Assembly: GCF_000416985.1 (NCBI RefSeq)
Contig: NZ_ATDL01000001.1
Coordinates: 62,001 to 126,000 of the forward strand
Direction of reading: 5' to 3'
Source: Sphingobacterium paucimobilis HER1398
Lineage (GTDB): Bacteria > Bacteroidota > Bacteroidia > Sphingobacteriales > Sphingobacteriaceae
DNA: 64,000 nt
In this document: piece by piece, positions 1,766-44,886 of the stretch
Numbering within the stretch: the first letter of the stretch is position 1
Layout: each line of letters opens with the position of its first letter
Program-made: the position numbers and the translations under genes
The notes under the pieces: generated by a model
What the model saw: the letters and a program-made list of their open reading frames with translations, nothing else
Told to the model about the DNA's origin: nothing
Databases searched by the model: none

Positions 1766-3055
1766 CTAGAGCCGCGCATCCACAATCGTGCGATCCAATA
1801 CAGATTTACAATCAAAGACCACTGCTTTATCCGCTAAAAGAGAGCGAACATCCAAGTCCAAGAACTCCGTGTGTGCAACAGCCAAAATAACCGCATCATA
1901 GCACCCTTCGGGTCTAACCAAGAGCTCTATCAAATACTCACGTCTAACTTCTTCTGCATCAGCCCAGGGGTCATACAACATAGGGACGGCTCCATACTCT
2001 TTGAGCTCTTCATAGATATCCAGGACTTTAGTATTACGTACGTCCGGACAATTCTCTTTGAATGTGAGTCCCAGGATCAACACCTTAGCATCTTTGACCG
2101 CAATATGCTTTTGAGACATCAACTTGACTACTTTAGAAGCGACAAACTCCGCCATTCGGTTATTGACCCGCCGTCCAGAAAGGATTACCTCTGGGTGATA
2201 TCCCAACTGTGAAGACTTGTGTGCCAAATAGTAAGGATCCACTGATATACAATGCCCCCCCACCAAACCTGGCTTATATTTAAGAAAATTAAACTTCGTC
2301 GCAGCAGCATCCAGCACATCATGCGTATCGATTCCTATCCGATCAAAGATCAGCGCCAACTCATTGACAAACGAAATATTAACATCCCGCTGTGCATTCT
2401 CGATTGCCTTAGCGGCCTCTGCGACCTTAATTGACGGAGCTTTATATGTACCAGCGCTGATTATGGTACGGTAAAGCGCATCAATCTCTTCGGCTGCTGC
2501 AGGTGTCGAGCCAGAAGTTACTTTTACAATCTGCTTCAAAGTATTGATCTTATCTCCTGGATTGATCCGCTCCGGGGAATAGCCCACAAAAAAGTCGATA
2601 TTAAAACGAAGTTTAGAAGTCTGTTCCAAAATAGGCACACACTCCTCCTCTGTACATCCCGGATACACGGTCGACTCATAGATCACAATATCTCCAGGCT
2701 TCAACACCTGACCAATCTCGAATGATGCCTGTTGTAAAAAGCTAAGGTTTGGAGCATTAAACTCATCTATAGGCGTGGGTACCGTGATGATATAAACTTT
2801 AGCATGCGCTATATCACGCAGTTCACTAGTAGCTTGATAGCCTCGTCTTCCTGGTTGTTCGACAGCTAGCGCTAACATCTCCCGCAGGAGTAGTTCTTCC
2901 ACCTCTAGTGTACGGTCTTTGCCCTGATTGAGAGCCTCTACGCGAGCAGGAGAAATATCGTATCCCAATACCGAATAGTAAGCTGCAAAAGCCAATGCAA
3001 GGGGTAGTCCTACATACCCCTGTCCGATAACGGCTATTGTATCTGGATACGACAT
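1766..3055 (-). CDS. nucleotide-sugar 6-dehydrogenase (UDP-HexNAc dehydrogenase type, TviB/WbpO-like)
   Basis: Cytosolic NAD-dependent enzyme that oxidises C6 of a nucleotide sugar to a uronic acid for surface polysaccharide synthesis. The 429 residues show an N-terminal Rossmann fold (GQGYVGLPLALAFA, about residues 11-24), the middle helix region (KAIENAQRDVNISFVNELALI) and the catalytic loop PGLVGGHCISVDPYYL with the active-site Cys. The C-terminal domain has the LGLTFKENCPDVRNTK motif. The spacing around GGHCI.VDPYYL resembles UDP-N-acetylhexosamine dehydrogenases (TviB, WbpA/O) more than UDP-glucose dehydrogenase, so the substrate is inferred. It lies 5 bp behind the mannose-1-phosphate guanylyltransferase gene, in the same operon. 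Confidence 0.9.
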   Translation of the reverse strand: MSYPDTIAVIGQGYVGLPLALAFAAYYSVLGYDISPARVEALNQGKDRTLEVEELLLREMLALAVEQPGRRGYQATSELRDIAHAKVYIITVPTPIDEFNAPNLSFLQQASFEIGQVLKPGDIVIYESTVYPGCTEEECVPILEQTSKLRFNIDFFVGYSPERINPGDKINTLKQIVKVTSGSTPAAAEEIDALYRTIISAGTYKAPSIKVAEAAKAIENAQRDVNISFVNELALIFDRIGIDTHDVLDAAATKFNFLKYKPGLVGGHCISVDPYYLAHKSSQLGYHPEVILSGRRVNNRMAEFVASKVVKLMSQKHIAVKDAKVLILGLTFKENCPDVRNTKVLDIYEELKEYGAVPMLYDPWADAEEVRREYLIELLVRPEGCYDAVILAVAHTEFLDLDVRSLLADKAVVFDCKSVLDRTIVDARL

Positions 3056-3060
3056 CTAAA

Positions 3061-4050
3061 CTATAACAATGGTGAGGCTCCGTGCTCTAACTCTTCATAC
3101 AAATGTTTGACATCCTGAGAGGCCTGTTTTTTGACCACAAGAAGAGCATCTTCTGTATAAACCAATATGGTATCCTGTACCCCGACAAACGAGACATACT
3201 TGTCCGTTCCTATTACCATATTCCCCGCAGAATCTACAGCATGACCTTTTACTTTAAGATAATCGTACAGTGAGTCGTAAGACCCCATATCAGACCATAC
3301 AAACTGCGAAGGGATAACCTTGATCCGCTCGCTACGCTCCATCACAGCATAGTCTATACTTTTGGAAGGAATCTTTGCAGAAAGCTCCTCTGATAGTACC
3401 CCATGATGCGAGGCTTCAAACACTTCTTTGGAGGCACGAAACACTTTCGGTTCAAAACGGAAAAGCTCCTCCAAGTAAATAGAGGCTTTAAAGCAGAATA
3501 TTCCCGAATTCCACAGAAAATTCCCTCTCTTTAAAAACTCCTTTGCTGTCTCCAAATTGGGCTTCTCCCTAAAAGACAGCACATAATTATCTTCGTATTC
3601 GATATATCCATAACCAGTCTCTGGACGATTCGGCTGTATGCCAAATGTGACCAAATAGTCTTGCTGAGCCATCTCAACCCCTTGCTTCAGTACGGCTTCG
3701 TACTGTGTTTGATTTTCGATAAGATGATCCGAAGGGGTCACAATCAAAATATCATCGGGATTACAAGCAAAAGCAGCAAAAGCAATTGCAGCTGCAGTGT
3801 TACGAGGACTAGCTTCGACAATCGTCTGACTCTTGTGCTCAGGCAAGTAAGGCTTTGCAAGATCCACGTTTTGTATACTACCGACCATAATGGTACGATC
3901 GACAACGCCTTGATTCCGAGCTACAGTCAATTCGAATAAAGACTGCCCCTCAAATAGTGGGATGTACTGTTTAGGGCGTGCCTTACGAGACAACGGCCAC
4001 AATCTAGAACCAACTCCCCCGGATAATATAACATTAATAATACTTGCCAT
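3061..4050 (-). CDS. manC: mannose-1-phosphate guanylyltransferase
   Basis: Makes GDP-mannose from mannose-1-phosphate and GTP, the donor for mannose- or fucose-containing polysaccharides. The 329 residues hold only the nucleotidyltransferase domain: the N-terminal GGVGSRLWPLSRKARPKQY signature (about residues 11-29), ETGYGYIEY, FREKP, WNSGIF and the SIDYAVMER motif. The C-terminal phosphomannose isomerase half of long bifunctional enzymes is absent, as is common in Bacteroidota. It is the first gene of a two-gene polysaccharide precursor operon with the dehydrogenase just downstream, and follows the exonuclease gene by 26 bp. The family is certain; exact sugar flux is not visible here. Confidence 0.92.
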   Translation of the reverse strand: MASIINVILSGGVGSRLWPLSRKARPKQYIPLFEGQSLFELTVARNQGVVDRTIMVGSIQNVDLAKPYLPEHKSQTIVEASPRNTAAAIAFAAFACNPDDILIVTPSDHLIENQTQYEAVLKQGVEMAQQDYLVTFGIQPNRPETGYGYIEYEDNYVLSFREKPNLETAKEFLKRGNFLWNSGIFCFKASIYLEELFRFEPKVFRASKEVFEASHHGVLSEELSAKIPSKSIDYAVMERSERIKVIPSQFVWSDMGSYDSLYDYLKVKGHAVDSAGNMVIGTDKYVSFVGVQDTILVYTEDALLVVKKQASQDVKHLYEELEHGASPLL

Positions 4051-43437: not shown

Positions 43438-43445
43438 TAGCTTTG
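43438..43445 (+). promoter_or_regulatory. -7 promoter box of metK
   Basis: TAGCTTTG, an exact TAnnTTTG. The predicted start near 43450 is about 10 nt before the riboswitch-like structure at 43459. No clear TTG -33 element. Confidence 0.55.
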
Positions 43446-43458
43446 TCCCGTCAAAAAA

Positions 43459-43530
43459 GGTGGACTGATTTGCATTTTACTTGAACAGTAAAAAGGGAGA
43501 TTGCAACCACAGAAAAAAAGTGCTAAAACC
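43459..43530 (+). ncRNA. SAM-II-like riboswitch candidate in the metK leader
   Basis: The order of elements follows the SAM-II (metX-type) consensus. A P1 strand GGTGG comes first, then CTGATTT, an enlarged loop, TTGCAA, P1' CCAC, an A-rich linker, and GTGCTAAAACC (compare GCUAAAAAGG). The enlarged loop holds a 7-bp hairpin (TTTTACT, 43475-43481, with AGTAAAA, 43487-43493). Its position directly upstream of SAM synthetase fits negative feedback. SAM-I also has GCAACC and GTGCTAA, but its P3 hairpin between them is absent here. Fold not computed. Confidence 0.68.
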
Positions 43531-43557
43531 ATTCATTTACTCGTTTTTCACTTCTAC

Positions 43558-43592
43558 CTGTATTGCTTTTTTCTAACTAAGGTACAATACAG
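43558..43592 (+). promoter_or_regulatory. second hairpin in the metK leader, possible expression platform
   Basis: CTGTATTG (43558-43565) pairs perfectly with CAATACAG (43585-43592) across a 19-nt loop. It is about 40 nt before the ATG. No T-run follows, so it is not a terminator; a role in translation control or mRNA stability is inferred. Confidence 0.45.
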
Positions 43593-43632
43593 TTCCCACA
43601 AGGTAATATTATACAAAAACAACTATTGTAAT

Positions 43633-44886
43633 ATGGCATATTTATTCACATCCGAATCGGTATCGGAAGGCCATCCAGACAAAATTGCGGATCAAATATC
43701 TGATGCATTAATTGATAACTTTCTAGCGTGGGACGAAGATGCCCGCGTGGCTATCGAAACTTTGGTCACTACAGGTCAAGTCGTATTAGCCGGTGAAGTG
43801 AAATCTAAGATATATTTGGATGTTCAGAAAATAACACGAGCAGTCATTGAAAAGATCGGCTATACGAAATCGGCATACATGTTCGAAGCGAACTCATGCG
43901 GTGTATTATCAGCCATTCACGAGCAATCTGCTGATATCAATCAGGGAGTAGACCGTAAAACGAGGCAAGAACAAGGCGCAGGAGATCAAGGGATCATGTT
44001 TGGTTATGCAAACAATGAGACCGATAACTATATGCCATTAGCGCTGGATTTATCCCATCGCTTACTTTATGAATTAGCCGCTTTACGTCGCGAAAACAAA
44101 GAAATCTCTTATTTACGCCCCGACGCCAAATCGCAAGTTACCTTAGAATATAGCGACGACCATAAACCCTTGCGTATCGACACCATTGTAATCTCTACAC
44201 AGCATGATGATTTTGACAACGAAGATACTATGCTTGCAAAAATTACAGAAGACATCAAAAACATTTTGATTCCTCGGGTCAAAGCACAGTTGAAACCGGA
44301 GCTACAAGCATTATTCAACGATAATATAAAATTCCATGTCAATCCTACGGGTAAGTTTGTAATCGGTGGTCCACATGGAGATACCGGATTGACAGGGCGT
44401 AAAATCATCGTGGATACCTATGGTGGTAAGGGAGCACATGGTGGTGGAGCTTTTTCAGGAAAAGATCCTTCAAAAGTAGACCGTTCGGCGGCCTATGCAA
44501 CACGGCATATTGCCAAAAACCTAGTAGCTGCTGGTGTTGCAGACGAAATACTAGTTCAGATTTCGTACGCTATCGGTGTAAAAGATCCTATGGGAATCTA
44601 CGTAAATACATACGGAACAAGTAAGGTGAAATTCTCAGATTCTGAAATTGCAACGAAAATTTCTGAAATTTTCGACATGACACCATACGGTATCGAAACA
44701 CGCCTGGGGCTGCGCAATCCTATATATTCCGAAACTGCAGCTTATGGACATATGGGACGGACACCAAAGACCGTCACGAAAACATTTGAAAGTTCTAATG
44801 GCGAAACCAAAACGGTGGAAGTAGAGCTGTTTACTTGGGAAAAACTTGACTACGTGGATAAAGTCAAAACGGCTTTCGGAATTTAA
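43633..44886 (+). CDS. metK: S-adenosylmethionine synthetase
   Basis: Makes SAM from methionine and ATP. The 417 residues begin at [28 protein letters not shown] (the GHPDK ATP/Mg motif). The other signatures are [25 protein letters not shown], and [44 protein letters not shown] (methionine and phosphate binding). The frame is open to 43501, but that upstream part is the riboswitch leader. The C-terminus is slightly longer than in E. coli MetK (about 384). It ends in a strong terminator. Confidence 0.97.

Follow-up and report, generated by a model that had tools for sequence, protein, structure and literature searches.

Background

Riboswitches published as SAM-II act through intrinsic terminators or through masking of the Shine-Dalgarno sequence (PMC1273637, PMC9373788, PMC6061858), and some of them carry a Shine-Dalgarno sequence in their tail (PMC9373788). 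As far as these accounts go, the known SAM-II mechanisms rest on proteobacterial or marine examples of these two kinds. The membership of Bacteroidetes in the family RF01726 was published in 2010, in a table row that reads Bacteroidetes, marine (Weinberg et al., PMC2864571). The main text of that paper gives SAM-II this one row and one sentence, and no description of an expression platform for the long-loop form was found there. Within the open-licence literature, it is the sole paper that we found to join SAM-II, riboswitch, metK and Bacteroidetes. No paper joining SAM riboswitch, Sphingobacteri- and metK was found in the same literature, a restriction that makes this absence weak evidence. 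The accession RF01726 itself is mentioned in two papers there.

Here we describe an element that precedes metK in a 64,000-nucleotide stretch of the Sphingobacterium paucimobilis HER1398 genome; this whole stretch is called the window below. Its aptamer is of a class already described; what is less known is a clade-specific hairpin in the first loop, L1, and a leader that is complementary to the ligand pocket. Downstream sequence able to pair with the pocket of the sensor may be how the switch is thrown.

The aptamer

In a cmscan search, positions 43454-43536 of the forward strand match Rfam family RF01726, which Rfam describes as SAM-II long loop, scoring 53.3 bits where the gathering score is 44 (E 2.2e-7 in a search over the whole window). 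No other Rfam match in the 64 kb exceeds its gathering score; the weaker matches near the element, RAGATH-34 and HOTAIRM1_3, lie far under cut-off and were discarded. Judged by its sequence, the element truly belongs to SAM-II (RF01726), a riboswitch family already known. A first-pass annotation had proposed a SAM-II-like riboswitch with an enlarged loop and had mentioned that long-loop forms were described; both points agree with the Rfam result, a check that it had itself proposed, and every part that it listed is found in the proposed order and place (Table 1).

Table 1. Features of the metK locus, numbered from the first nucleotide of the window
Feature	Position	Strand	Basis
TAgcTTTG promoter-like box	43438..43445	+	sequence; similar box recurs in relatives by eye
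SAM-II riboswitch aptamer, RF01726	43454..43536	+	cmscan 53.3 bits
P1 5' strand GTGG	43460..43463	+	invariant in 26/26 aligned Sphingobacterium sequences
CTGATTTG	43465-43472	+	sequence
7-bp hairpin inserted in L1	43475..43493	+	4 bp or more in 33/33 distinct L1 inserts
P2 5' strand GGGAGATTGCA	43495..43505	+	GAGATTGCA invariant in 26 aligned sequences
GGG	43495-43497	+	sequence
GGGAGATTGCAA	between L1 hairpin and A-rich linker	+	sequence
TTGCAA	43501-43506	+	sequence
P1 3' strand CCAC	43507..43510	+	sequence, alignment
Predicted anti-aptamer stem alpha, 5' strand (AAGTG + AAAAC)	43518..43529	+	MFE folds
P2 3' strand / SAM pocket GTGCTAAAACC	43520..43530	+	GTGCTAA invariant in 26/26
C-rich, G-poor leader between aptamer and metK	43531..43632	+	C 19.6%, G 8.8%
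Predicted anti-aptamer stem alpha, 3' strand (GTTTT + CACTT)	43543..43553	+	predicted; GTTTTTCCACTT-like motif common in genus
Further predicted anti-aptamer arms	43558..43574	+	MFE fold of window leader
Predicted arm CTGT with ACAG	43558-43561 with 43509-43512	+	MFE fold
Predicted arm TTGC with GCAA	43563-43566 with 43503-43506	+	MFE fold
Predicted pairing of T-rich run with AGGGAGA	after TTGC arm	+	MFE fold
metK, S-adenosylmethionine synthetase	43633..44886	+	TIGR01034 502.7 bits, cut-off 309.4

P1 consists of four Watson-Crick pairs between GTGG and CCAC. The 5' strand had been annotated as GGTGG; these four pairs stand, but the first G (G43459) faces A43511, a non-standard pair in the Rfam alignment. 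Conservation was read from an alignment of 26 of the 33 same-genus sequences, in which P1, GATTT, GAGATTGCAACCAC and GTGCTAA are invariant and the A residues that come next are nearly so. Conservation of the P1 pairs and of the GCTAAAA segment in relatives had been named as a check, and in the genus both are kept, the trailing A residues nearly always. The P1 stem and the invariant pocket strands that characterize RF01726 (GATTT, ATTGCAACC, GCTAA) are all present, there is an A-rich linker ahead of the GTGCTAAAACC strand, and the element leads a SAM gene, metK at 43633. Since P1 and the pocket never vary within the genus, no covariation can come from them there.

The reading of SAM as the ligand comes here from the sequence; one could imagine that the aptamer senses a SAM relative (SAH, for example) or binds nothing. 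This seems to us very improbable: the strands of the pocket fit the SAM-II model and do not vary, the SAM-II aptamer of A. tumefaciens discriminates more than 1000-fold against SAH (PMC1273637), and the downstream gene is that of SAM synthetase.

The distal part of the pseudoknot helix P2 covaries outside Sphingobacterium. Among 46 distinct sequence pairs from outside the genus, a G lies opposite the first C after GCTAA in all 46. Standard pairs are found at the second distal position in 33 of them, where shuffles average 25.1 (p 0.0005), at the third in 27 (p 0.005) and at the fourth in 18, a count without significance. Sphingobacterium breaks this register, with a standard second pair in 2 and a standard third pair in 3 of 15 distinct strand pairs. 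The GG of the P2 5' strand may instead pair with the CC of the tail, GG(43496-43497):CC(43529-43530). The GG that this needs occurs in 13 of the 15 distinct Sphingobacterium strand pairs and is absent in the other 2, and GG:CC was rejected as a general distal helix of the genus. The tail itself reads CTAAAACC and contains no Shine-Dalgarno-like sequence.

By eye, boxes similar to TAgcTTTG stand before P1 in relatives, and TAnnTTTG-like boxes are found within about 70 nt of the ATG in nine metK leaders that have no aptamer. We take boxes of this type to be Bacteroidota -7 elements, and on this reading transcription would start at about 43450-43453. A sigma-70 promoter scan gave no match. Small open reading frames were looked for in the SAM-II leader, and no convincing one was found.

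The extra hairpin

The enlargement of L1 is, as annotated, a perfect 7-bp hairpin, TTTTACT/AGTAAAA (43475-43481/43487-43493). A long L1 insert occurs in 39 of 98 sequences, and 33 of these inserts are distinct. All 33 form at least 4 bp, with a mean z of -1.37 and p<0.05 in nine; the hairpin of the window taken alone is not significant (z -1.02, p 0.146). It also folds in 28 of 28 additional Sphingobacterium sequences.

In the sequence alignment of 26, the share of paired cells stands out and the count of double changes does not. Hairpin cells are paired in 63% of cases, and the figure with P1 included (75.6%) was equalled in 6 of 500 shuffles, while slid versions reached at most 58.2%. Changes on both sides are seen at 7 of 8 pairs, compared with 5-7 pairs in slid versions and an average of 6.0 in shuffles. 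These figures come from an alignment that is not ideal, because the hairpin is shifted by one base in some species.

Seven of 27 discovery sequences from other families have a hairpin in L3 instead, between P1 and GCTAA. The Rfam alignment treats the L3 insert of one such sequence (L096) as an ordinary insertion and passes over the Sphingobacterium L1 hairpin as a local end. This suggests that the L1 form is not represented in the RF01726 seed. The likely role of the L1 hairpin is to cap the loop at a site away from the pocket, and it would have no part in SAM binding.

Distribution and co-occurrence with SAM-I

Matches to RF01726 at E<=0.001 were found in 189 of 201 genomes of the family sample, with 153 passing the cut-off, and in 63 of 395 genomes of a Bacteroidota-wide sample, with 57 over the cut-off. 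In the genus itself the element is present in 33 of 35 genomes, the one described here included. The association with metK, which the first-pass annotation had wanted checked for this group, turns out to be general: metK lies 3' of the aptamer in 138 of 139 fetched hit loci (71/71, 28/28 and 39/40). The sole locus without metK (L160) has a match of 31.9 bits, under the cut-off, and was dropped from the leader tests. A gapped pattern of the genus motif retrieved 56 named records, of which 54 are titled Sphingobacterium and the others are Rhinopithecimicrobium faecis and Sphingobacteriaceae bacterium DW12. The motif is followed by metK in 54 of the 56, and in the remaining two the match lies less than 200 bases from the end of the fetched stretch.

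Twelve family genomes have no match. Nine of them contain a full-length metK, one a fragment and two none. The aptamer pattern is absent from all nine metK leaders, and a search for SAM-I, positive in 15 of 15, found it in every one of the nine. In one metK leader (L080, genome G090), compared by eye with L055, a natural deletion has removed everything of the aptamer beyond the P1 5' strand, together with part of the leader, so that this strand is followed directly by the leader's end; the promoter-like box is retained. This would be a ready-made comparison strain for metK regulation.

The own genome contains four SAM-I riboswitches and one SAM-II, the latter before metK. Judged by eye from translations, the SAM-I copies precede a metY/metZ-like gene, metE, an OsmC-like gene and metF. 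By a hand tally of the Bacteroidota-wide sample, 57 of the 63 SAM-II genomes are also positive for SAM-I, the others being G351, G424, G432, G540, G544 and G558. The distribution given in a 2007 survey had no species with both SAM-I and SAM-II (PMC2258182). In one Flavobacteria-like locus (L096, matches 1501-1587 and 2992-3087), a SAM-I match lies about 1.4 kb downstream of SAM-II on the same strand, just beyond metK. Short open reading frames stand right behind two SAM-I riboswitches of one genome: one of 36 codons, 10 nt after the aptamer and ending in STRMR (L112), and one of 32 codons, 9 nt after the aptamer and ending in YYHRMYMRVC (L114). Neither has an NCBIfam match, and they are possibly leader peptides.

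A leader complementary to the pocket

The leader that follows the aptamer is rich in C and poor in G. Its C/G skew of +0.38 is reached by 6% of 183 control leaders taken from 464 kb of the same genome. C exceeds G after the aptamer in 33 of 33 same-genus leaders and, among held-out leaders, in 37 of 38 and 28 of 28. This skew may be a by-product of complementarity to the aptamer, as described below.

The leader was tested for complementarity to the 3' half of the aptamer, with dinucleotide-shuffled leaders as the reference. These fold tests omit L107 and L166, which the motif pattern missed although both have aptamer and metK; L082, a metK fragment, was dropped. The mean z is -1.65 for the 33 same-genus sequences and -1.98 for 65 others. 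In 38 held-out leaders it is -2.93, with 37 below zero and 21 with p<=0.05, though 17 of the 38 come from one genus (g29) and are therefore not independent; for the 14 held-out leaders of the own family it averages about -1.6. The signal is weaker in a further 28 held-out Sphingobacterium leaders, where z averages -0.81 and is negative in 19, and p<=0.05 is reached in 4. If the entire aptamer is used and not only its 3' half, these sets of 33, 65, 38 and 28 have means of -1.34, -2.11, -3.04 and -1.08. When the 183 control leaders serve as the yardstick, 16 members of the same-genus set of 33 rank within the top 5%. The leader of the window itself shows no significant excess, with a shuffle p of 0.16 and 8% of the controls doing equally well.

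The excess falls on particular strands. Within the genus, the P2 5' strand shows it in 32 of 33 sequences, the tail in 31 and GTGCTAA in 30; in other families, too, the two P2 strands are favoured. The remaining genera of the family differ: there TTGCAA, the linker and the P2 5' strand carry the excess, GTGCTAA pairs no better than in shuffles (20 of 38 above them) and the tail pairs less (higher in 9 of 38). Exact complements of single 6-mers are enriched, those reported being the ones with at least four occurrences and more than 2.5 times expectation among 28 positions per group. Among 51 flavobacteria-like leaders, 29 contain a CTAAAA-type complement where 3.0 would be expected; for the GATTGC-type the family leaders give 10 of 52, with an expectation of 0.5. 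In Sphingobacterium, complements of GATTTG occur in 9 of 30 (1.5 expected) and of GTGCTA in 6 of 31 (0.2 expected).

The flavobacterial stems were compared in 27 of the 51 leaders, those with a TTTAG motif, after removal of identical stretches and exclusion of L158, where TTTAG lies elsewhere. In these stems 92.5% of cells pair, a share reached in 5 of 500 shuffles, with slid versions at 66.9% or less. Five cells, all at one pair, have the double change of A-U for G-C, which no shuffle among 500 produced. Where the motif is present in the discovery sequences, AAAA tails have T before TTTAG (5 of 5) and AAAG tails have C (7 of 7); the motif is absent in 15 of the 27. Held-out leaders with AAAG tails have C in 17 cases, T in one and G in one, and the motif is absent in 5 of 24.

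One might argue that the complementarity arises merely as a by-product of base composition and common descent and is no true platform. The signal is indeed weak in held-out Sphingobacterium, the S. multivorum-like group shows no pairing excess even with the whole aptamer, and related sequences do not count as independent events. On the other hand, the signal survives dinucleotide shuffles, held-out families and 6-mer counts, and one pair of the flavobacterial stems exchanges G-C for A-U on both sides. We consider the by-product explanation unlikely, and we regard a leader complementary to the pocket strands as a supported, clade-wide tendency.

In whole-leader folds of ten same-genus sequences listed, the 3' half of the aptamer is in most cases predicted to pair with the 50-60 nt that follow it, giving a single long hairpin of nested stems; L037 is among the exceptions. 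Stem alpha was tried as a universal platform and reaches p<0.05 in 21 of the 98 leaders. When pairs are counted, the genus averages 9.8 against 5.7 in shuffles, and 3 of its 30 sequences pass that level. The stem is therefore not universal. A small hairpin, CTATC/GATAG, directly follows stem alpha in a subset of species (L033, L042, L051 and others). Leaders on their own show no stable structure (mean z -0.39 and -0.14).

How the switch might work

An anti-aptamer expression platform is probable, and we hold with moderate confidence that the SAM-II element in the metK leader represses SAM synthetase at high SAM by means of such a fold. Without SAM, the leader would pair with the pocket strands and dismantle the pseudoknot. 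One pairing, alpha, would join AAGUG..AAAAC with GUUUU..CACUU; another, beta, would join GGAGA/UUGC/ACAG with CUGU/UUGC/UCUCC-like sequence. SAM would keep the pseudoknot shut and thereby free a C-rich, G-poor and weakly structured strand. Rho-dependent riboswitches exist, and the likeliest OFF step would be that Rho loads on the freed strand and halts transcription before metK.

Neither of the classical SAM-II platforms, an intrinsic terminator or a Shine-Dalgarno sequence in the tail, was found at this locus. Intrinsic termination could take two forms: a terminator formed with SAM, or one of opposite sign formed without SAM from the predicted GCAA:TTGC arm and the TTTTTT run that follows it at 43567-43572. 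The first has precedent in the many alpha-proteobacterial SAM-II elements with putative terminators (PMC1273637, PMC2258182), and since six T follow the predicted arm, the second might operate in this one species. Yet a crude scan of the 45 nt upstream of T runs, which misses longer hairpins, gave terminator-like sites in 1 of the 98 leaders, and among stems with loops of 3-8 there is none in the stretch of the window scanned. Moreover, two leaders resembling that of the window (L186 and L197) have CCCTTCCCC at the T run, which by inspection is complementary to GGGAG. Termination of this kind appears quite improbable to us.

Control of translation, with the start region of metK covered in the SAM-bound RNA or the freed strand annealing close to the AUG, is a little less improbable, though still unlikely. 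SAM-V and the metX SAM-II riboswitch are described as working in this way (PMC6061858), and in L033 and L051 an AAAAAC before the AUG could, by eye, pair with freed GUUUUU. Modelled accessibility of the region from -20 to +13, however, is equal in the two states over the 98 leaders (0.563 free, 0.557 bound); in the bound state it is more than 0.05 lower in 22 leaders and higher in 15. Masking of the start codon by the SAM-bound fold was rejected for this reason. The tail CC is also some 100 nt from the AUG, in a tail with nothing like a Shine-Dalgarno sequence.

If the preferred account is true, a leader that is complementary to the pocket and then Rho would offer a testable account of small pseudoknot riboswitches in such a phylum. 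A broader speculation is that the SAM-II of Bacteroidota is a switch type of its own, with a leader that evolves as a complement of the pocket strands and with neither terminator nor Shine-Dalgarno sequence. It would gate Rho or another reader of single strands at metK while SAM-I runs methionine synthesis, and two lineages would have stabilised the pseudoknot by hairpins, in L1 in Sphingobacteriaceae and in L3 in the Flavobacteria-like relatives. As a whole, this proposal is tentative and rather doubtful.

Comparison with known systems

The classical SAM-II family RF00521, the metA element of Corbino et al. 2005 (PMC1273637), shares with the present element a single stem P1 and a pseudoknot P2, a likely transcription start just before P1 and an association with SAM-related genes. 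It differs in that many members are described with putative terminators and some with a Shine-Dalgarno sequence in the tail, neither of which was found here, and in that the gene here is metK. A search of the genome with RF00521 gave no match; control genomes were equally without one, so the missing match does not amount to absence.

SAM-I (RF00162) has the same ligand and four copies elsewhere in the genome, but its fold is unrelated and it does not precede metK in this genome. SAM-V is in Rfam, and it is absent from the Rfam matches up to E 5. It resembles the present element in its pseudoknot and in a pocket nearly identical to that of SAM-II (PMC6061858). As described there, SAM-V has a hairpin, P3, before the strand that enters P2, apparently on the L3 side used by the Flavobacteria-like relatives; the hairpin of the window is in L1, on the opposite side of the pseudoknot. 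Closest of all is RF01726, from the same phylum and with the same P1, pocket strands and A-rich linker. The difference lies in the hairpins, since its model has a place for a Flavobacteria-like L3 insert as an insertion and handles that of Sphingobacterium L1 as a local end.
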